Source: a virus
Virus record (IMG/VR): IMGVR_UViG_3300035199_000199
Location: 1 to 21,068 of that record
DNA length: 21,068 bases
Strand: one strand, 5' to 3'
In this document: positions 5,980 to 18,797 of the stretch, piece by piece
Layout: each line of letters begins with the position of its first letter
Position numbering within the stretch: the stretch's first letter is position 1
The notes under the pieces: model-generated
Database searches by the model: none
What the model saw: the letters and a program-made list of their open reading frames with translations, nothing else
Told to the model about the DNA's origin: nothing
Translations under genes and position numbers: made by a program

Positions 5980-6719
5980 TGCCGCTCCCAAAGCCAGAGA
6001 ACAACGAGTCGCATGATCGGTTTATCGCTCGTTGTATGTCGGATGATATTATGAAAACAGAATACCCAAACGAGAAACAGCGGCGTGCTATCTGCGAACG
6101 GCAGAGCCAGAAGTCGCTCGCTACTTTCAAGAACCTACTAGAAGCAAAGCAAGGAGACAGAACGGTCGTAGCGCGGATCACTACCACCAGCGTAGATCGC
6201 GACGGCGACGTACTGATTCCTGGCGGCATGGATGCCAGCAGCTATAAGCAGAACCCCGTCGTGTTGTTCGCTCACGATGCAGGATCGTTCCCTATCGGCA
6301 AGGCTCCCAAGATTACGAGAACGAGCGACGACGTAACGGCGCGTGTTGAGTTCGCCAAGCGACCTCCAGAACACCCCATTACCGAGGAATGGGCAGCTGA
6401 TACAGTCTTGAGCCTATTCCAGCAGGGCATACTCAATGCCTTTTCTGTTGGCTTCCGGGTAAAGGACGGCGGCATACGCAAGGCCGAGTCCAAAGATATA
6501 TCTCGCTTCGGCGATGGCGTTCGGCAGGTGATAACCGATTGGGAATTGGTAGAGCTATCGGTCGTTCCTGTTCCCGCGAATCAGGATGCACTGGCAGTAG
6601 CCGTATCGAAGGGCTGCAACCTGGGGCAAGTGGGAAAGTTCTGGAACATTCGATTGCCGCTTGAAATATCGGTACCCAGTCCGCTAGTATTGGAGCAAGT
6701 GGAGCCGTTGAGGCTCTGA
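5979..6719 (+). CDS. HK97-type prohead protease (peptidase S78 family)
   Basis: This 246-residue serine protease cleaves the capsid delta region and itself during head maturation. The likely catalytic His is His99 in 'VVLFAHDAG' and the nucleophile is Ser156 in 'NAFSVGF'. The family hallmark 'WELVELSVVPVPAN' follows at 188-201. The N-terminus has a short conserved-looking leader (PKPENNESHDRFIARCM, residues 4-20) followed by 'NEKQRRAICERQ', a block I have seen at the start of many phage head proteases. ATG 5979 is chosen because it overlaps the previous stop as TAATG and begins this leader; an in-frame ATG at 5922 lies inside the preceding gene. The last codons and the stop form part of a predicted RNA stem with the following spacer. 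Confidence 0.93.
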   Translation: MPLPKPENNESHDRFIARCMSDDIMKTEYPNEKQRRAICERQSQKSLATFKNLLEAKQGDRTVVARITTTSVDRDGDVLIPGGMDASSYKQNPVVLFAHDAGSFPIGKAPKITRTSDDVTARVEFAKRPPEHPITEEWAADTVLSLFQQGILNAFSVGFRVKDGGIRKAESKDISRFGDGVRQVITDWELVELSVVPVPANQDALAVAVSKGCNLGQVGKFWNIRLPLEISVPSPLVLEQVEPLRL

Positions 6720-6833
6720 TAATCTATTCTCGCGGCTCCCTTCTCTGCCGCGATGGACCTCGAATAGATAGGTCGGACCCCTAGACCTTGCGGGTTCTTC
6801 CGACGATTCCCGGCAACCATCCTAATCAGAGTC
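6712..6833 (+). ncRNA. Candidate structured RNA element in the protease-capsid spacer
   Basis: The longest gap so far in this packed operon can fold compactly. A closing stem pairs 6712-6720 with 6825-6833 (9 bp, one G-U). Inside it a hairpin pairs 6722-6729 with 6762-6769 (8 bp) and 6730-6736 with 6747-6753 (7 bp), with a 10-base loop and an 8-base bulge. Next comes an H-type pseudoknot: GTCGGA 6772-6777 with TCCGAC 6799-6804, interleaved with TTGCGGG 6788-6794 and 6809-6816 (one bulged G). The stem starts within the protease stop region and ends at the capsid start region. The pairings are read directly from sequence; a function is inference. It could be a cis-acting regulator of capsid translation, an mRNA processing or stability element, or a separate small RNA. 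It does not fit a tRNA, hammerhead or HDV-like fold. Confidence 0.5.
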
Positions 6834-6867
6834 GGTGCCAATGACCCGTATTCGGAGTCGTTGCGCC

Positions 6868-8313
6868 ATGAATTGGCAAGCACTTGTAAAGCGATTGAAA
6901 GACGAAGGTTTTGACGGCGACGTAAAGAGCCTTGATGCCGTCAAAGCATTTTTGGACGACATGTACGGCGGCGTTGTAGAGGTATCAGGCAAAGCCCTGG
7001 ATATCGATGAGCTACATAGCGAAGCCTACCCCCCGCGACCAGCATTAGACGTATCGAAAGATGCGGAGGATATGCGGGTCGAGGCAATTATCAAGGCAAC
7101 CCGCGATGACGAGCGCGCAGCGATGCTAGCTGCGGGGATCGGTTCGACGAAAGTGAACCGCGACCATAGCGAAGAAATCGAAGCGGTATCAGTCAAGAGT
7201 GAACGGTGGGAGGATAGCCCCGCCCTCACATACAGCGAGTTCTCTGACAGCACCCTTGGGTTCGGCATGTTCTTGCATGACGTGAAAAAGGCCGCTTATG
7301 CCCGCCAGTCGGGTAGGCAAGCGCCGGATCGTCTGCTCAAGGCCAACGAGTACCTGACCAAAGGCACCGGAACGGGCATGAATATGTCCACCGATGCTGA
7401 GGGCGGATTCCTCGTCGCGCCAGAACATCAGAGCGAAGTATTGCGCAAGGCGCATGATACCGGGATGGTGTTCAGTCGTGCTCGCCCCTTTTCTCTTACT
7501 TCAAAGCAAGCAACGGTACCGTATATCGTCGAGTCATCTCGCGTAGACGGTTCGAGGCATGGCGGCGTGCGTGGATACTGGACCGGCGAAGGGGCGACCC
7601 TTACGGCTTCAGCCCCGAAGGGTGGCAAGCTCACACTGACCGCACATAAGCTCACAACCCTCGGATATGCAACAGAAGAATTAGAGGAAGATGGCGACGT
7701 CGGAGCGATCACGCTCTTGGGCGAACTGTTCCCAGAAGAAATCGCGTTCAAGATGGACGACGCTTTCATCAATGGCACTGGGGCCGGGCAGCCACTAGGC
7801 GTGCTAAACGCCAACTGCACGGTATCGGTCGCAAAGGAAACCGGCCAAGCAGCCTCGACCGTCGTATTCGAGAACGTATCCAAAATGTATTCGCGTATGT
7901 GGGGACGTTCACGCGCTAACGCCGTTTGGTTTATCAATCAGGATATCGAGCCGCAACTGTTCACCATGAGCCTATCGGTCGGCACTGGTGGCTTGCCGGT
8001 CTATATGCCTGCTGATGGAGCAGCCGGTACGCCGTTCGGTCGCCTGATGGGTAGGCCGGTTATCCCGGTCGAAGCCTGCGCGACACTTGGAACGGTCGGC
8101 GATATCATCTTGGCGGACATGTCGCAATACCTCTACGCACAGCGAAGGGGCATGACCTCTGCTCAGTCAATCCACGTTCAATTTACTACAGACGAGGTAG
8201 CATTCAAGACGACGATGCGAGGGGACGGCCAGCCCTGGTGGCAGGCAGCACTCACCCCGTACAAGGGTTCGAATACCCAAAGCCCGTTCGTAACGCTTGC
8301 AACTCGCGCCTGA
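6868..8313 (+). CDS. Major capsid protein, HK97 fold
   Basis: This 481-residue protein forms the icosahedral shell. Residues about 1-160 are charged and helical, as expected of a delta (scaffold) region removed by the protease. The HK97-fold core then starts near 'TKGTGTGMN' with 'STDAEGGFLVAPEHQSEVL'. Family-typical blocks include 'GGVRGYWTGEGATLTAS', the 'EELEEDGD' region, 'DDAFINGTGAGQPLGVLN' and a C-terminal 'TTMRGDGQPWWQAAL'. ATG 6868 is favoured, with GGAG 6854-6857 ten bases upstream; GTG 6835 and ATG 6841 are in frame and would add 9-11 residues beside the structured spacer. If ATG 6841 were used, its only SD-like bases (AGAG 6828-6831) would be buried in the closing stem. The decoration gene follows closely at 8332. 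Confidence 0.93.
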   Translation: MNWQALVKRLKDEGFDGDVKSLDAVKAFLDDMYGGVVEVSGKALDIDELHSEAYPPRPALDVSKDAEDMRVEAIIKATRDDERAAMLAAGIGSTKVNRDHSEEIEAVSVKSERWEDSPALTYSEFSDSTLGFGMFLHDVKKAAYARQSGRQAPDRLLKANEYLTKGTGTGMNMSTDAEGGFLVAPEHQSEVLRKAHDTGMVFSRARPFSLTSKQATVPYIVESSRVDGSRHGGVRGYWTGEGATLTASAPKGGKLTLTAHKLTTLGYATEELEEDGDVGAITLLGELFPEEIAFKMDDAFINGTGAGQPLGVLNANCTVSVAKETGQAASTVVFENVSKMYSRMWGRSRANAVWFINQDIEPQLFTMSLSVGTGGLPVYMPADGAAGTPFGRLMGRPVIPVEACATLGTVGDIILADMSQYLYAQRRGMTSAQSIHVQFTTDEVAFKTTMRGDGQPWWQAALTPYKGSNTQSPFVTLATRA

Positions 8314-8829: not shown

Positions 8830-8835
8830 AACAAC

Positions 8836-8856
8836 CGCCTGCGGGCGTTTCTTATT
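8836..8856 (+). terminator. Candidate Rho-independent terminator after the capsid pair
   Basis: CGCC 8836-8839 pairs with GGCG 8844-8847 around a TGCG loop and is followed by TTTCTTATT (8848-8856). The GC stem is short (4 bp, with flanking AA/TT after one mismatch), so termination may be partial, which would fit read-through to the tail genes. Confidence 0.4.
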
Positions 8857-8886
8857 GGTGCGGGCGTCCTTCCGGTCGCTCGTACC
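8857..8886 (+). other. Strong hairpin in the capsid-downstream spacer
   Basis: GGTGCGGGCGTCC (8857-8869) pairs with GGTCGCTCGTACC (8874-8886) around a TTCC loop, with 12 of 13 positions paired including two G-U pairs. It is followed by TTTCC, too few T for a classical terminator. It may protect or process the upstream capsid message. The rest of the spacer (8887-8957) holds another weaker hairpin (8899-8926) and GGAG 8945-8948 before the next start; I see no convincing promoter. Confidence 0.45.
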
Positions 8887-8957
8887 TTTCCACAATTCAA
8901 CTCGTTGCCTAAGCGGGCGCGAGGTTTGCTTCAACCCATACACCGGAGTAACCCGAG

Positions 8958-9869
8958 ATGGCACGTTCAGGACTATTCGTAAAGAAGCAAGCAGGCGCTA
9001 GCTTCTCGACTGTCGAGGACATGGCACACTCGACTGGCAATCGCTTCTATGTTGACAGCGGTTCGTCGAGCAACGGTGATAGTGCAGGATACGGGCAGAG
9101 TCCCGATTCTCCATTCGCCACGATCGACTTTGCAGTTAGTCAATGCACGGCTAACAACGGCGACATTATTTATGCCATGCCGGGCCACGCCGAAACAGTA
9201 TCGGCTGCGGGCGGCTTAGACCTAGACGTTGCCGGGATGTCTCTTATCGGTATCGGCCACGGCACCGACATGCCTACCGTGACACTAGATACGGCGACCT
9301 CCGCCGACGTAGACATTGATGCGGCTAACGTACTTGTCGAGAACATTACGTTCTCGGCAAACTACGCCGACATCGTTGCAGCGATCGACGTCAATGCGGA
9401 CGATTTCACAATGCGGGGTTGCAGGTTTCTCGAAACAGCGACGAACATGAACGCGCTTATCTGGATTCAAGACGCCAGCGGAACGGACTCGGATCGTATC
9501 ACGATCGAGGATTGTTCCTGCAAGCTCCTTGATGCTGCGAACACGCACTTTATCAACTTCGCAGGAACCGGCGACGGTCATATTGTCCGCAATAACCTTT
9601 TGACGGGCGATTGGGGAACAATGTGTATCGGCGGCGCGGGCGTCGTGACGTTTTGCTCCATCTACAACAACTATGTTTACAATGCTGCAACCGACGCCGA
9701 CGCATGTATTTCTATGGCGGCAACTGCAACTGGCATCTGTGCTAACAACAGATGCACAGGCGGTCACGCAAGCCAGGGCATTACCGAAGGCCGCTTAGGA
9801 GCATTGGAGAACTACTACGTGCAGCATACGCTCGCGACCAGTGGTATTCTCGAGCCTGCAACCGCGTAA
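8958..9869 (+). CDS. Right-handed parallel beta-helix (pectin-lyase-like) protein
   Basis: This 303-residue protein has the pattern of a right-handed beta-helix. The N-terminal 'FYVDSGSSSNGDSAGYGQSPDSPFATIDFAVSQC' is the cap seen in many extracellular and phage beta-helix proteins. It is followed by 'GDIIYAMPGHAETV' near residue 74, then repeated short strands with Asn/Asp/Gly turns ('VLVENITFSANYADIVAAIDVNADDFTMRGCRFLETATNMNALIWIQDA'). No polysaccharide-lyase catalytic set can be assigned. Such proteins are usually tailspikes, but this one sits between capsid and connector genes, so a head fibre, head decoration or neck appendage is more likely by position. GGAG 8945-8948 is 9 bases before ATG 8958. 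The structural call is good; the role is inference. Confidence 0.8.
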   Translation: MARSGLFVKKQAGASFSTVEDMAHSTGNRFYVDSGSSSNGDSAGYGQSPDSPFATIDFAVSQCTANNGDIIYAMPGHAETVSAAGGLDLDVAGMSLIGIGHGTDMPTVTLDTATSADVDIDAANVLVENITFSANYADIVAAIDVNADDFTMRGCRFLETATNMNALIWIQDASGTDSDRITIEDCSCKLLDAANTHFINFAGTGDGHIVRNNLLTGDWGTMCIGGAGVVTFCSIYNNYVYNAATDADACISMAATATGICANNRCTGGHASQGITEGRLGALENYYVQHTLATSGILEPATA

Positions 9870-10298: not shown

Positions 10299-11473
10299 GC
10301 GATCTTTCGTCAGCACAACTAGACGACCTAAGAAGTAAGGCCAAGCTCGTTATCGGTATCGAGGATGACGACACGCGCTTTCATGCATCCGGCCTTGCGA
10401 TTTATCACGATGAATCTAGTAGTGCAACGGCGGCTACAGTAGCGGTTACCTCGTCAACGATCGTCCTAGTTATCACTGGCGGCAGTAATGCCGGTACTGA
10501 CACTATGACAATGGCGGATAGCAACAAAGATACACTCACCGAAATGGTAGCGCAGATCAATGCGCTATCGAAAGGGTGGGTCGCTACATTGCTTGGAGAG
10601 TCTGCGGCAGATACGACGGCACTGGTACGCAAGGATGCTACGAGTGCTTTCGGATCTGCAAACGAGCAGACGTTGCTATACGAGAACGAGGAATTGCTTG
10701 ATCTGCTTATAACGAATATATGGGACGGAGTTGAATCTGCACTAAGTCGCGACATACTCAGCACAGACTTTAGTGAGATTTACACACTTCCGTCCATCGG
10801 AGTCGAGTTGGTACTACGCCAACCAAACGTAACTCAAGTCACGATGCTGTCGTTTGAGACAGAGCACGCGATTGATATGAGTTATTCTGGCTCAGACACC
10901 CATGCCCGCGTTGAGGTGACCGATACCGCCGTCGTTACCACTTCGCGGGTGGGTGCTACTACTACAACAACGACAAGTACGTTCGCGTCTAATGTTACGA
11001 CTGACGCAATGGCAACCACGATCAGCGCACTATCTGGATGGACCGCAACGGCCATCAACTCAAGGCCGTCTGCGTTTCTCGAACGACGGGGCGTGCAGGA
11101 CACTAAGAACAAGACGGTTAGGCTAGAGGCTTGGGATGATTCTGTCGGAGACTATTCCGTTGAGTACGAAGCCGGGGTGATTACATTTTGGGGCGACTCG
11201 ATTCGTGCCGGATGGCCTGGTGCGATATGGAACGGATACAACAGGGCGCGAATAGACTATACCGCAGGCTTTACGACGATCCCCTCTGATGTGGAACAAG
11301 CGATCATCGAAGCGGTACGGGATGCCTGGGCAGAAAAGGATAGGACCGGCGGCCTCAAGTCTGAATCGCTCGGCGACTATTCATGGACAGCAGCAGATAA
11401 CGCGACAACAGCAGCAGTAGCCGAAACGGCTGCGGCCAAGTTATCGAATATGTACCAGCGGGTCACGCCATGA
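10295..11473 (+). CDS. Head-tail connector (adaptor, gp6-like) with two inserted repeat domains
   Basis: This 392-residue protein ends in a gp6-like connector pattern: 'RIDYTAGFTTIPSDVEQAIIEAVRDAWAEKDRTGGLKSESLGDYSW'. The phrase 'YTAGF...IP.dv..Ai...v...' is typical of phage adaptor proteins that bind under the portal. Those are usually 100-200 residues; this one is larger because of two similar Thr/Ala-rich segments at about residues 44-112 and 200-264. Each carries a short helix ending in ALSKGWVAT or ALSGWTAT (Trp95 and Trp249). They look like duplicated surface domains inserted into the connector scaffold. The gene starts in an ATGA overlap. Its TGA is followed at once by the ribosome site of the next gene. 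Confidence 0.75.
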   Translation: MSDLSSAQLDDLRSKAKLVIGIEDDDTRFHASGLAIYHDESSSATAATVAVTSSTIVLVITGGSNAGTDTMTMADSNKDTLTEMVAQINALSKGWVATLLGESAADTTALVRKDATSAFGSANEQTLLYENEELLDLLITNIWDGVESALSRDILSTDFSEIYTLPSIGVELVLRQPNVTQVTMLSFETEHAIDMSYSGSDTHARVEVTDTAVVTTSRVGATTTTTTSTFASNVTTDAMATTISALSGWTATAINSRPSAFLERRGVQDTKNKTVRLEAWDDSVGDYSVEYEAGVITFWGDSIRAGWPGAIWNGYNRARIDYTAGFTTIPSDVEQAIIEAVRDAWAEKDRTGGLKSESLGDYSWTAADNATTAAVAETAAAKLSNMYQRVTP

Positions 11474-11478
11474 GGTGG
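11472..11478 (+). promoter_or_regulatory. Shine-Dalgarno site deciding the start at 11484
   Basis: GAGGTGG lies 5 bases before ATG 11484. The longer in-frame GTG at 11475 falls inside this site and is therefore unlikely as a start. Confidence 0.6.
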
Positions 11479-11483
11479 CGCGT

Positions 11484-11831
11484 ATGAGTATCGATTCGCT
11501 TTGCAACACATCGCTATCTGTCGAAAGAATGAGTGCGGCTAGGGACGCCAGCGGCGGATCGGTTGAAACATGGGCATCGCACCATGTCTTGCAGGGACGT
11601 ATCCAGCCTTTGTCTAGCCAGCAGCGTAACAGTTACTCTAACGAGACAACGGTTATAACACACCGGGTATATTTCCCCGGCGGTATTGATATAAGCGCTT
11701 CGACTGATCGGTTACGCTTTTCCGATACCTACGGAGTGTCGAGATATCTGATTATCCACGGCGTTAGGAATATCGACGAACAGGGCAGGCTGGTTACATG
11801 CGAGTGCGAGGAACAAGACGTCGATGAGTAA
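11484..11831 (+). CDS. Head closure/head-tail joining protein (phage H-T join family)
   Basis: This 115-residue protein has the pattern of small head-closure proteins: N-terminal 'SVERMSAARDASGGSVETW', a central 'LQGRIQPLSSQQRNSY', then 'VITHRVYFPGGIDISASTDRLRF' and 'RYLIIHGVRNIDEQGRLVTCECEEQ'. The order 'G.IqPls..e...y......thrvy......i...drl.......yli.gv.n....g....c.c.e' matches the head-tail adaptor (SPP1 gp16-like) type that stops DNA leakage from filled heads. ATG 11484 is chosen over GTG 11475 because GAGGTGG precedes it. It sits between the connector and the gp10-like gene, the usual place for this function, and overlaps the latter by 8 bases. Confidence 0.8.
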   Translation: MSIDSLCNTSLSVERMSAARDASGGSVETWASHHVLQGRIQPLSSQQRNSYSNETTVITHRVYFPGGIDISASTDRLRFSDTYGVSRYLIIHGVRNIDEQGRLVTCECEEQDVDE

Positions 11832-12255
11832 GCCGCAAAGAAATAGAAAAGTACGATTCTTCAAGAAAACGAGCTATGGAAACAATAGCCAGCGCGATTG
11901 GGATTCTTTTCGTAAAGAAATGGAAGGGGTAGCTCGCGAGGCGATGGCTAGAGCAGCAATCATCGTAGAAACCGAAGCCAAGCTATTACTCAACCTCGCC
12001 GCATATCCGCCTGCATCTGCACCTGGCGATCCGCCTCATAAACGAACAGGAACACTTGGCAGATCAATACAGAATGAGGTATTGAAAGACGAAAAGGAAC
12101 TGGTAGGCCGGGTCGGAACGAATCTCGTTTACGGAAGATGGCTAGAGTTGGGAACGAGCCAGATGGAACCTCGCCCGTATTTGCGACCAGCCCTGACGAA
12201 ATCCATGAGGCGTATAAAGCCCTTACTGCGAAAGGTTGCAAAAGCTAATGAATAG
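11824..12255 (+). CDS. HK97 gp10-like head-tail/neck protein
   Basis: This 143-residue basic protein carries the HK97-gp10 hallmark: 'APGDPPHKRTGTLGRSI' followed by 'GRVGTNLVYGRWLELGTSQMEPRPYLRPAL'. The 'PG.PP..rTG.L' and 'G....Ya...E.GT..m.PrPfl.pal' blocks are characteristic. The family acts at the head-tail interface or in tail assembly. The N-terminus is Lys/Arg-rich (SKPQRNRKVRFFKK). It starts inside the end of the closure gene (ATG 11824, TAA 11829-11831), and its stop overlaps the ATG of the zinc-ribbon gene that follows. Length is normal for the family. Confidence 0.88.
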   Translation: MSKPQRNRKVRFFKKTSYGNNSQRDWDSFRKEMEGVAREAMARAAIIVETEAKLLLNLAAYPPASAPGDPPHKRTGTLGRSIQNEVLKDEKELVGRVGTNLVYGRWLELGTSQMEPRPYLRPALTKSMRRIKPLLRKVAKANE

Positions 12256-16999: not shown

Positions 17000-17616
17000 G
17001 TCGTGGCGGCGACATCCCCGATATTACTCGCGGCCTTGGTTTATTCGATGTCGCTTTATGGAAACGGTATGCACGCAATGCCGTAGAGTTTGAGGAGCTA
17101 TATCCTCTACTGCAAGAGATCGCGAGGATACCGCGACTGCTCGAACGGCTTGAGGGACAGTCGCAAGCGATGCAAACTGTTATATGGGCGAGGATAGACG
17201 ACGCATCCACAGCAGGCGACGGGCTTGGTCCTGTAGCTCTAAGGCAAAATGATGCGGGCCTCGATGTTGCTTGGCGATACCCCTGGCAGCGAGTAGAGAT
17301 AGACGACGCAACCGATAACGATTATTCCGTTATCGACATTACTCGCGGCACGGTGATGTCAGGGACGATCGGAAATAATTATGCATTGAACGGGGTCGAA
17401 GCAAACAACGGTCGGATCGCTGGCACGAACTTGGTAGCACCGGGGGTTATCGCAGACCCTGACGATGGCTCGATCAACTACCCTGGCGGCTTCGAACCGC
17501 AGCCGATACAAGGACGGCCAGTCGTACCGATGTTCTTTATGCTACAGACTGACGGTACCTTTCGTCCGATGTTCTTCCTCAGCAATGCGCACGACGGAAA
17601 CTGCGGCGGCGGCTAA
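16996..17616 (+). CDS. Distal tail-region protein with N-terminal coiled-coil helix
   Basis: This 206-residue protein starts in an ATGA overlap with the previous gene (16996-16999). Its first 70 residues are helical and charged ('WKRYARNAVEFEELYPLLQEIARIPRLLERLEGQSQAMQTVIWARI'). The rest is loop- and strand-rich ('DITRGTVMSGTIGNNYALNGVEANNGRIAGTNLV') with a final 'PVVPMFFMLQTDGTFRPMFFLSN'. It ends DGNCGGG, the first cysteine before a very cysteine-rich neighbour. I do not recognise a family. The helix-then-beta layout would fit a trimeric tail-tip or fibre-attachment protein, which is a guess. Its TAA overlaps the next ATG as TAATG. Confidence 0.72.
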   Translation: MSRGGDIPDITRGLGLFDVALWKRYARNAVEFEELYPLLQEIARIPRLLERLEGQSQAMQTVIWARIDDASTAGDGLGPVALRQNDAGLDVAWRYPWQRVEIDDATDNDYSVIDITRGTVMSGTIGNNYALNGVEANNGRIAGTNLVAPGVIADPDDGSINYPGGFEPQPIQGRPVVPMFFMLQTDGTFRPMFFLSNAHDGNCGGG

Positions 17617-18797
17617 TGTCTAATGTGCGGCCATGTTGTACCGATTGCGACCCGCCGAAGTTTTGCTATTACGTCGCTACTATATGCGACTGCGAGCAAT
17701 GCGGGTTCGGCTGCACCGACCACCAGGAAATCGCGGTACCTTGCTTTCACGCTGAGAATATGCCTGGGTTTGCTACCGAGGCGCGCTTTCGTTCTACTTG
17801 CCCACCGCATTATTGTTATCAAGTCAGTCCGGGGCATGACAAGATAACCGACCCCGGTGATCTGACGGTCTGCTATGGGGTAAGTCGCGCCGGTATCGTC
17901 GAAGTATGGGATTCATGCGACGACTGCTGCGGGTGTTATCAAAAGATGGTCGCTTGTGGTTGTCAGCCCGACGACGGAACTTGCGAGGCTGCGGGCGGTC
18001 CTGAAACCAATAGGTATCGGCATTGCCAAGGCATTGCGAATGATAACTCGCAGGGCCGGTATGCCATGAAGATAGACGATTGCTGTATGGAGCCTGATGG
18101 TAACAATATCACTCAAGACGATTTGCCTGGGGGCTGGTTACAGTCCGGCGCGTTGCAGCACGGAAGTTGCGGCGAGTGTTGCGAGTGCGCGAGCCATTGC
18201 GGTTATCTTTATGTTGAAAATGTGGGACACGATTACGTTTGCGAAAACGAGTGTCCCGAAACGATACAACTTACAGCATCGTTCCAACTTGAAGGCTGCG
18301 GCCACTTATGCGATTGCAATACTGACCCATCATGCGGCGGTTCCCCACTTGACCCTTGGGACAGTTGCACCGACGAATGCACAGACTGTCGGACTAGCTT
18401 TACTGTAACGCTTCACAAGACATCGACGGGAAGCGGTAACGACTGTGCTTGGTACATAAATGCGTCAGACAAAGATTATGGTCCGCCTCATAATGGATGT
18501 GATTCAGACTTGCGGATCAACAACGCCGAAATACGGTGCCAAGGGTTTTCTGCTGGAACTGGCGACAGATTGTGGTTGATCTATATTCAGGTATATTGCC
18601 GGAAGGGCCTGTCGCCGCCTGCTACTTTTTGTTGCAGTTGCGGGCCGATACATCAGGGCTATGCTTTCGTCTATACAGACGGGGGCGTTGATTTGAAAGA
18701 CGCTATCGATTCTGCTTCGTTCTGCGGATGTCCTCCGGGTTCGGGATGGGTCATCGGCTCCGAGTATGATTGGCTGACATCGGTATCGATTTCCTAG
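17616..18797 (+). CDS. Extremely cysteine-rich protein in the tail module
   Basis: This 393-residue protein has about 45 cysteines (more than one residue in nine) spread along its whole length. They occur in clusters such as CCTDC, CDCEQC, CDDCCGCY, CGECCEC, CTDECTDC and CCSC. The rest is acidic and Gly-rich, and Lys-poor for its size. There is no signal peptide, transmembrane segment or family motif I can name. The cysteines could bind many metal ions (zinc or iron) or form disulfides once outside the cell. Metal-binding knots or a disulfide-stabilised tail appendage are the two readings. The reading frame is unbroken, ATG 17616 overlaps the previous TAA, and codon use looks like its neighbours, so it is a genuine gene. 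A virion tail-tip or receptor-facing role is inferred from its place between tail genes. Confidence 0.75.
   Translation: MSNVRPCCTDCDPPKFCYYVATICDCEQCGFGCTDHQEIAVPCFHAENMPGFATEARFRSTCPPHYCYQVSPGHDKITDPGDLTVCYGVSRAGIVEVWDSCDDCCGCYQKMVACGCQPDDGTCEAAGGPETNRYRHCQGIANDNSQGRYAMKIDDCCMEPDGNNITQDDLPGGWLQSGALQHGSCGECCECASHCGYLYVENVGHDYVCENECPETIQLTASFQLEGCGHLCDCNTDPSCGGSPLDPWDSCTDECTDCRTSFTVTLHKTSTGSGNDCAWYINASDKDYGPPHNGCDSDLRINNAEIRCQGFSAGTGDRLWLIYIQVYCRKGLSPPATFCCSCGPIHQGYAFVYTDGGVDLKDAIDSASFCGCPPGSGWVIGSEYDWLTSVSIS

Follow-up and report, generated by a model that had tools for sequence, protein, structure and literature searches.

A candidate SAM-clan-like translational switch in the protease–capsid spacer of a viral head operon

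What does the spacer between the prohead protease and major capsid genes of virus record IMGVR_UViG_3300035199_000199 do? The record, analysed as a single stretch of 21,068 bases (hereafter the window), carries an HK97-type head operon of terminase, portal, protease (PF04586), and capsid (PF05065), in which this spacer (6720-6867, 148 nt) is the longest gap. An earlier sequence-only reading had described nearly all the other junctions as overlapping or very short; that description needs amending, in that two gaps stand out, the one considered here and one of 128 nt at 8830-8957, the next longest. The latter shows structure as well (z -2.2 to -3.1), including a 10-bp hairpin close to GGUGCGGGCG...CGCUCGUACC. 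The presence of relatives of the capsid in 31 of 392 Planctomycetota genomes suggests, short of proof, a host within that phylum. A second contig (L002, 32,850 bases) is 99.6% identical to the window over the 9,476 bases compared, with zero differences in the spacer; all 34 differences fall within 9215-9864 and 11018-11869, clustering at 9720-9864 and 11836-11869, and may reflect recombination, hypervariation, or assembly error. Elsewhere, the tail region of the window (17616-18797) encodes a very cysteine-rich protein of 393 aa with no PHROG match.

The sequence-only reading had drawn a closing stem, a long hairpin, and an H-type pseudoknot across this junction, and every pairing that it named exists in the sequence. 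The corresponding features, all on the plus strand, are:

6717-6719, plus strand: stop codon of the prohead protease gene (PF04586), lying within the 5′ strand of stem A
6712-6833, plus strand: stem A, the closing stem, GGCUCUGAU at 6712-6720 with AUCAGAGUC at 6825-6833, 9 bp including one G-U; duplex -11.6 kcal/mol, from sequence
6722-6769, plus strand: hairpin B, AUCUAUUC/GAAUAGAU plus UCGCGGC/GCCGCGA with an 8-nt bulge; lower helix 6722-6729/6762-6769, upper helix 6730-6736/6747-6753; z -3.99, 2 of 3000 shuffles
6788-6816, plus strand: alternative pseudoknot stem, UUGCGGG (6788-6794) with CCC(G)GCAA (6809-6816); duplex -7.1 kcal/mol, from sequence

Folding energy, proposed at the time as a check, sets the region apart: 6700-6870 folds at -65.3 kcal/mol (z -3.09), a value equalled by none of 200 shuffles, and z is -2.86 for 6712-6833 and -2.66 for the exact spacer, the baseline being coding windows of the same phage (mean z -0.15, sd 1.06, minimum -2.33). 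The stacked 8+7 bp hairpin arises in 2 of 3000 Markov shuffles, while 8-bp helices on their own are frequent (581 of 3000). Both strand pairs of the drawn pseudoknot, GUCGGA/UCCGAC and UUGCGGG/CCC(G)GCAA, are as described, and the H-type pseudoknot can form, but it is one of two options for the P2-loop strand, whose partner may be 6809-6816 or 6844-6848. The stem 6788-6794/6809-6816 is mutually exclusive with the helices P3 and PK-1 described later; the H-type pseudoknot, possible yet in competition with these, was not retained as the main fold. The Rfam search that had been called for returned no family at its cut-off. Nor is there a tRNA or tmRNA in the region, or a terminator or promoter in the spacer, the nearest promoter-like match ending at 6690 and lying within chance; no support was found for mRNA processing or a free small RNA.

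The capsid start has to be moved. Candidates at 6835 and 6841 give way, by homology, to ATG 6868, because the resulting N-terminus, MNWQAL, aligns with the MNWETF that begins the capsids of two relatives (L049 and L052). Three further features follow from this placement:

6868-8313, plus strand: major capsid protein gene (PF05065), ATG 6868, N-terminus aligned with those of L049 and L052
6854-6857, plus strand: Shine-Dalgarno GGAG, 10 bases before ATG 6868, from sequence
6834-6867, plus strand: hairpin C, predicted to sequester the Shine-Dalgarno; -18.4 kcal/mol, z -4.87, 0 of 200 shuffles

Hairpin C, absent from the sequence-only reading, is the strongest element for its size and has its 3′ end at the ATG; the computed cost of opening the Shine-Dalgarno is about 10 kcal/mol. 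Its predicted lock on the Shine-Dalgarno is the firmest regulatory feature of the locus.

Judged by its sequence, the segment 6759-6857 matches riboswitches of the SAM-I/SAM-IV clan, imperfectly but with the elements in order. Its parts are:

6759-6857, plus strand: SAM-clan-like aptamer, from an RF00162 match of 14.3 bits at 6759-6856 and the chance tests reported below
6759-6766/6849-6857, plus strand: P1, with bulged G6855; its 3′ strand holds the Shine-Dalgarno
6772-6777/6799-6804, plus strand: P2
6812-6818/6834-6839, plus strand: P3
6791-6795/6844-6848, plus strand: PK-1, CGGGU of the P2 loop with ACCCG
6810-6842, plus strand: P3 core, CCGGCAACC (6810-6818) ... GGUGCCAAU (6834-6842), an exact SAM-clan match

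The PK-1 strand ACCCG comes right after the core and continues straight into P1, which closes directly after it, so that there is no P4 helix. The SAM-I P3 letters G43, C44, A45, C47 / G56, U57, G58, C59, together with A61, are all present, at 6813-6817, 6835-6838, and 6840. From the conserved SAM-I pocket letters listed in PMC3764141, where A6-U88 and U7-A87 are the P1 pairs beside the ligand, the spacer keeps A12 along with A6, U7, A87, and U88, and with them both ligand-side pairs, in addition to the P3 letters just named (G43, C44, A45, C47, G56, U57, G58, C59, and A61). The match fails elsewhere. In J1/2, A12 is kept (A6770) but G11, which reads the methionine main chain of the ligand (PMC3764141) and is invariant in 13 Planctomycetota SAM-I sequences, is replaced by U6769; SAM-I U4 is G in the spacer; and P2 has no kink-turn with tandem G-A pairs, its 5′ GA being missing and only a GAU bulge being left. 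Two of the stems noted earlier take on candidate roles in this layout. The lower helix of hairpin B is a predicted anti-P1, similar in strength to P1 (-6.7 versus -5.5 kcal/mol). The P3-loop strand 6825-6833, immediately before 6834, is taken up by stem A, which by analogy would be PK-2-like, its other strand lying upstream and spanning the protease stop codon.

Profile searches and chance tests give this likeness uneven support. The SAM-I model RF00162 scores 14.3 bits against a gathering cut-off of 44.4, with E 2.2 over all families at loose thresholds and E 0.03 for that family alone in the whole record, where it is the sole RF00162 match; taken alone the match is not significant, and it is the matching letters that make the lead worth following. 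The models for SAM-IV (RF00634) and SAM-I/IV (RF01725) give no match at E 10. Two P4-less SAM-I models, R1 (bacterial, with P4 cut out) and R2 (the natural viral set), give 11.9 and 9.2 bits, which are not significant, chance carriers of the core reaching 12-17 bits. The exact P3 core occurs in 44 stretches among 2.9 million viral contigs, and the ordered architecture is absent from the remaining 43. When the core is held fixed, ordered P1, P2, and PK-1 appear in 21 of 20,000 flank shuffles; a loose core with loose helices appears in 30 of 400,000 shuffled spacers, and with strict helices in 2 of 400,000. These figures are to be discounted, because the architecture tests were designed post hoc with the window already seen, and because many RNA families could have been matched.

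The SAM-like reading concerns one unique sequence, the L002 copy being identical over the spacer. No diverged homologue of the spacer was found by blastn in phages or in the fetched capsid and protease relatives, and 392 Planctomycetota genomes gave short chance matches only; the identical copy contributes no covariation. Protease–capsid gaps of relatives are usually about 70-270 nt, and one (L266) has a terminator-like hairpin; none carries the SAM core. Six relatives with a protease about 50% identical (L049, L052, L108, L109, L111, and L112) share a spacer of 88-92 nt that is 91% identical among them, as compared to 84% for the protease end, and that has no SAM core, no unusual folding energy, and no Rfam match. 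Since this spacer is better conserved than the protease end and does so without the SAM core, the protease–capsid junction seems to carry lineage-specific signals. At L049:2845-2933 and its equivalents, GGUUGC can pair with a nearby GCAAC or with a downstream GCGAACC.

SAM-I riboswitches do occur on viral contigs. Their absence, as indicated by a strict pattern, was rejected: that pattern missed copies, and a kink-turn pattern retrieved from IMG/VR contigs 40 viral stretches that yielded 23 distinct, good SAM-I sequences. All 20 copies scored pass the Rfam cut-off, so that IMG/VR holds at least 20 bona fide examples (e.g. L224:4533-4634, L227:5205-5291, L231:703-787, and one in L240 upstream of 3251). 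Most are P4-less, with covariation in both P2 and PK-1 (double changes at 12 pairs, 0 of 500 shuffles). Several precede metK, the gene for S-adenosylmethionine synthetase, and others precede small unknown genes. At L233:3240-3326, downstream of a SAM-I of 59.6 bits come a terminator-like hairpin, an ORF of 76 aa, and the gene for a tail tape-measure protein, which by sequence places this switch within or beside a phage structural operon. A few copies, on L251 and L238, where FMN and THF riboswitches lie close by, may belong to host DNA. At the level of sequence, viral contigs do carry SAM-sensing RNAs, a point on which we found no open paper.

By sequence and folding, the spacer can adopt two mutually exclusive folds. 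In the closed fold, stem A and hairpin B form alongside hairpin C, which holds the Shine-Dalgarno shut. The aptamer fold consists of P1, P2, P3, and PK-1, keeps the upper half of hairpin B, and probably retains stem A as a P3-loop pseudoknot; hairpin C, which excludes P3, PK-1, and P1, here loses its 5′ strand to P3 and PK-1, and the Shine-Dalgarno sits at the foot of P1, where pairing is weak. The sequence-only reading had proposed a cis-acting RNA controlling capsid translation through competing states. That proposal fits the evidence, and the competing states were right in kind; its start codon and blocking element are superseded by ATG 6868 and hairpin 6834-6867. Nested energies are -46 to -48 kcal/mol for the aptamer fold, to which two pseudoknots are added (duplexes of -6.6 and -11.6 before penalties), and about -72 for the closed fold, leaving the aptamer fold about 10 kcal/mol less stable with a rough pseudoknot credit included. 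Because it lies well above the closed fold, the aptamer fold would need to form as the RNA is being transcribed or to be assisted by ribosomes.

On our preferred reading, held with evenly balanced confidence, the spacer would act in cis to switch translation of the capsid gene, and would do so, in response to a ligand, through a divergent aptamer of the SAM-I/SAM-IV clan that lacks P4. S-adenosylmethionine or a close relative would bind the P3/P1 pocket and shift the balance of folds, and ribosomes ending the protease at 6717-6719 would cover about 6702-6734 and might help to free the 5′ strand of P1 from hairpin B. We lean slightly toward ligand giving more capsid, given that the default state is hairpin C, which has to be opened; the classical alternative, in which P1 sequesters the site and ligand gives less capsid, is nearly as likely. 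Accessibility gives no polarity, since both folds cover GGAG at least partly, P1 weakly and hairpin C strongly. Upstream of the terminase, the window also carries a gene for a C5-cytosine DNA methyltransferase (542-1654, PF00145); this SAM-using enzyme is a possible biological link to a SAM sensor.

The main competitor, which we consider appreciably less probable though by no means negligible, is a structured capsid leader without a ligand, in which C would throttle initiation, B and stem A would insulate or stabilise the message, opening would come from translation, temperature, a phage protein, or RNA cleavage, and the SAM-like core would be coincidental. Hairpins B and C are indeed the statistically strongest parts, no RNA family is significant, and protease–capsid gaps (about 70-270 nt) are usual in relatives, without the SAM core. 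The SAM-clan switch is itself weakened by the shortfall of 14.3 bits against 44.4, the change of G11 to U, the missing kink-turn, the failure of the searches to turn up a diverged homologue and with it covariation, the relatives without the core, and the lower stability of the aptamer fold. It is nonetheless favoured because an exact core with P1, P2, and PK-1 in order is rare by chance, and because the 3′ strand of P1 has the Shine-Dalgarno and anti-P1 and P1 are similar in strength, which puts anti-P1 and Shine-Dalgarno where a switch needs them; both points tell against a ligand-free leader. It is favoured further because the listed pocket letters other than G11 are kept, SAM-IV follows much of the same plan, and P4-less SAM-I riboswitches exist in viral contigs.

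Loss of G11 and the kink-turn from a kept core (by the letters of PMC3764141) would also suit a decayed or captured host SAM riboswitch that no longer binds ligand and now serves as fixed structure only, and RF00162 is above its cut-off in 56 of 294 genomes of Planctomycetota, the likely host phylum. Decay would not, however, preserve the other listed P3 and P1 pocket letters and the PK-1 pairing, which are intact, and we think this origin improbable. A bolder form of the preferred reading, itself unlikely, is that the spacer represents a new class of the SAM-I/SAM-IV clan, P4-less, with its P3-loop partner upstream on the stop codon of the preceding gene and a J1/2 without G11; it would recognise a relative of SAM while dispensing with the usual contact to the methionine carboxylate (e.g. 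decarboxylated SAM or MTA) and would control translation of the major capsid protein. Least probable is a self-cleaving ribozyme, processing site, or other catalytic RNA: the closing stem and pseudoknot topology, as originally drawn, would allow for one, yet all Rfam families fall short of their cut-offs, relaxing the search to E 10 brings up no ribozyme, there is no tRNA or tmRNA, and the spacer lacks the length of a group I or II intron, with both flanking genes complete.

If the SAM-clan switch is real, phage particle assembly would be tied to a host metabolite through RNA alone, and the SAM-I/SAM-IV clan would gain a variant that draws on the end of the upstream gene to form its peripheral pseudoknot. 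Taken with the viral SAM-I copies that precede metK or sit in a tail operon, such a switch would suggest that phage RNAs sense SAM more widely than the small number of phage riboswitches in the open literature searched would indicate; these are of the glutamine type (PMC9004378), with manA and wcaG as candidates (PMC2864571). That literature yielded no report of a SAM riboswitch upstream of a phage capsid gene, and the new-class reading, if true, would give the first metabolite switch known on a capsid gene. Should the SAM likeness be coincidental, a strongly closed capsid ribosome-binding site remains, needing an opener.

Among known systems, the spacer resembles SAM-I (S-box, RF00162) in the P3 core CCGGCAACC/GGUGCCAAU, A61, the ligand-side P1 A-U and U-A pairs, and a PK-1 that joins the P2 loop to the strand following P3, and differs from it in lacking P4 and the kink-turn, in U for G11, and in a 21-nt P2 loop. 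SAM-IV has no P4; its PK-1 links the P2 loop with the strand preceding P1, and the strand of its P3 loop continues directly into the 3′ strand of P3 and pairs elsewhere as PK-2, with a strand after P5 (PMC6890682). The spacer shares with SAM-IV (RF00634) the absence of P4, PK-1 directly before P1, and the P3-loop strand leading straight into the P3 3′ strand; unlike SAM-IV, it has its PK-2-like partner upstream (6712-6720) rather than downstream and no P5, and its letters after GGUGCC follow SAM-I. With the SAM-I/IV variant (RF01725) it has in common the clan core and a P2 without kink-turn, but that variant lacks PK-1 and has P4 (PMC6890682), the opposite of the spacer. The glutamine riboswitch of Melnitz-like phages (PMC9004378) is likewise a phage-borne metabolite-sensing RNA, with a different aptamer and on a different gene (tmRNA). 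The P4-less SAM-I riboswitches of viral contigs L223-L261 share viral carriage, the absence of P4, and PK-1 followed by P1, and one of them lies in a tail operon; unlike the spacer, they have the kink-turn, G11, and scores of 51-64 bits, and those with a recognisable switch region (e.g. L233) have a terminator-like hairpin, where the spacer would act by Shine-Dalgarno sequestration.
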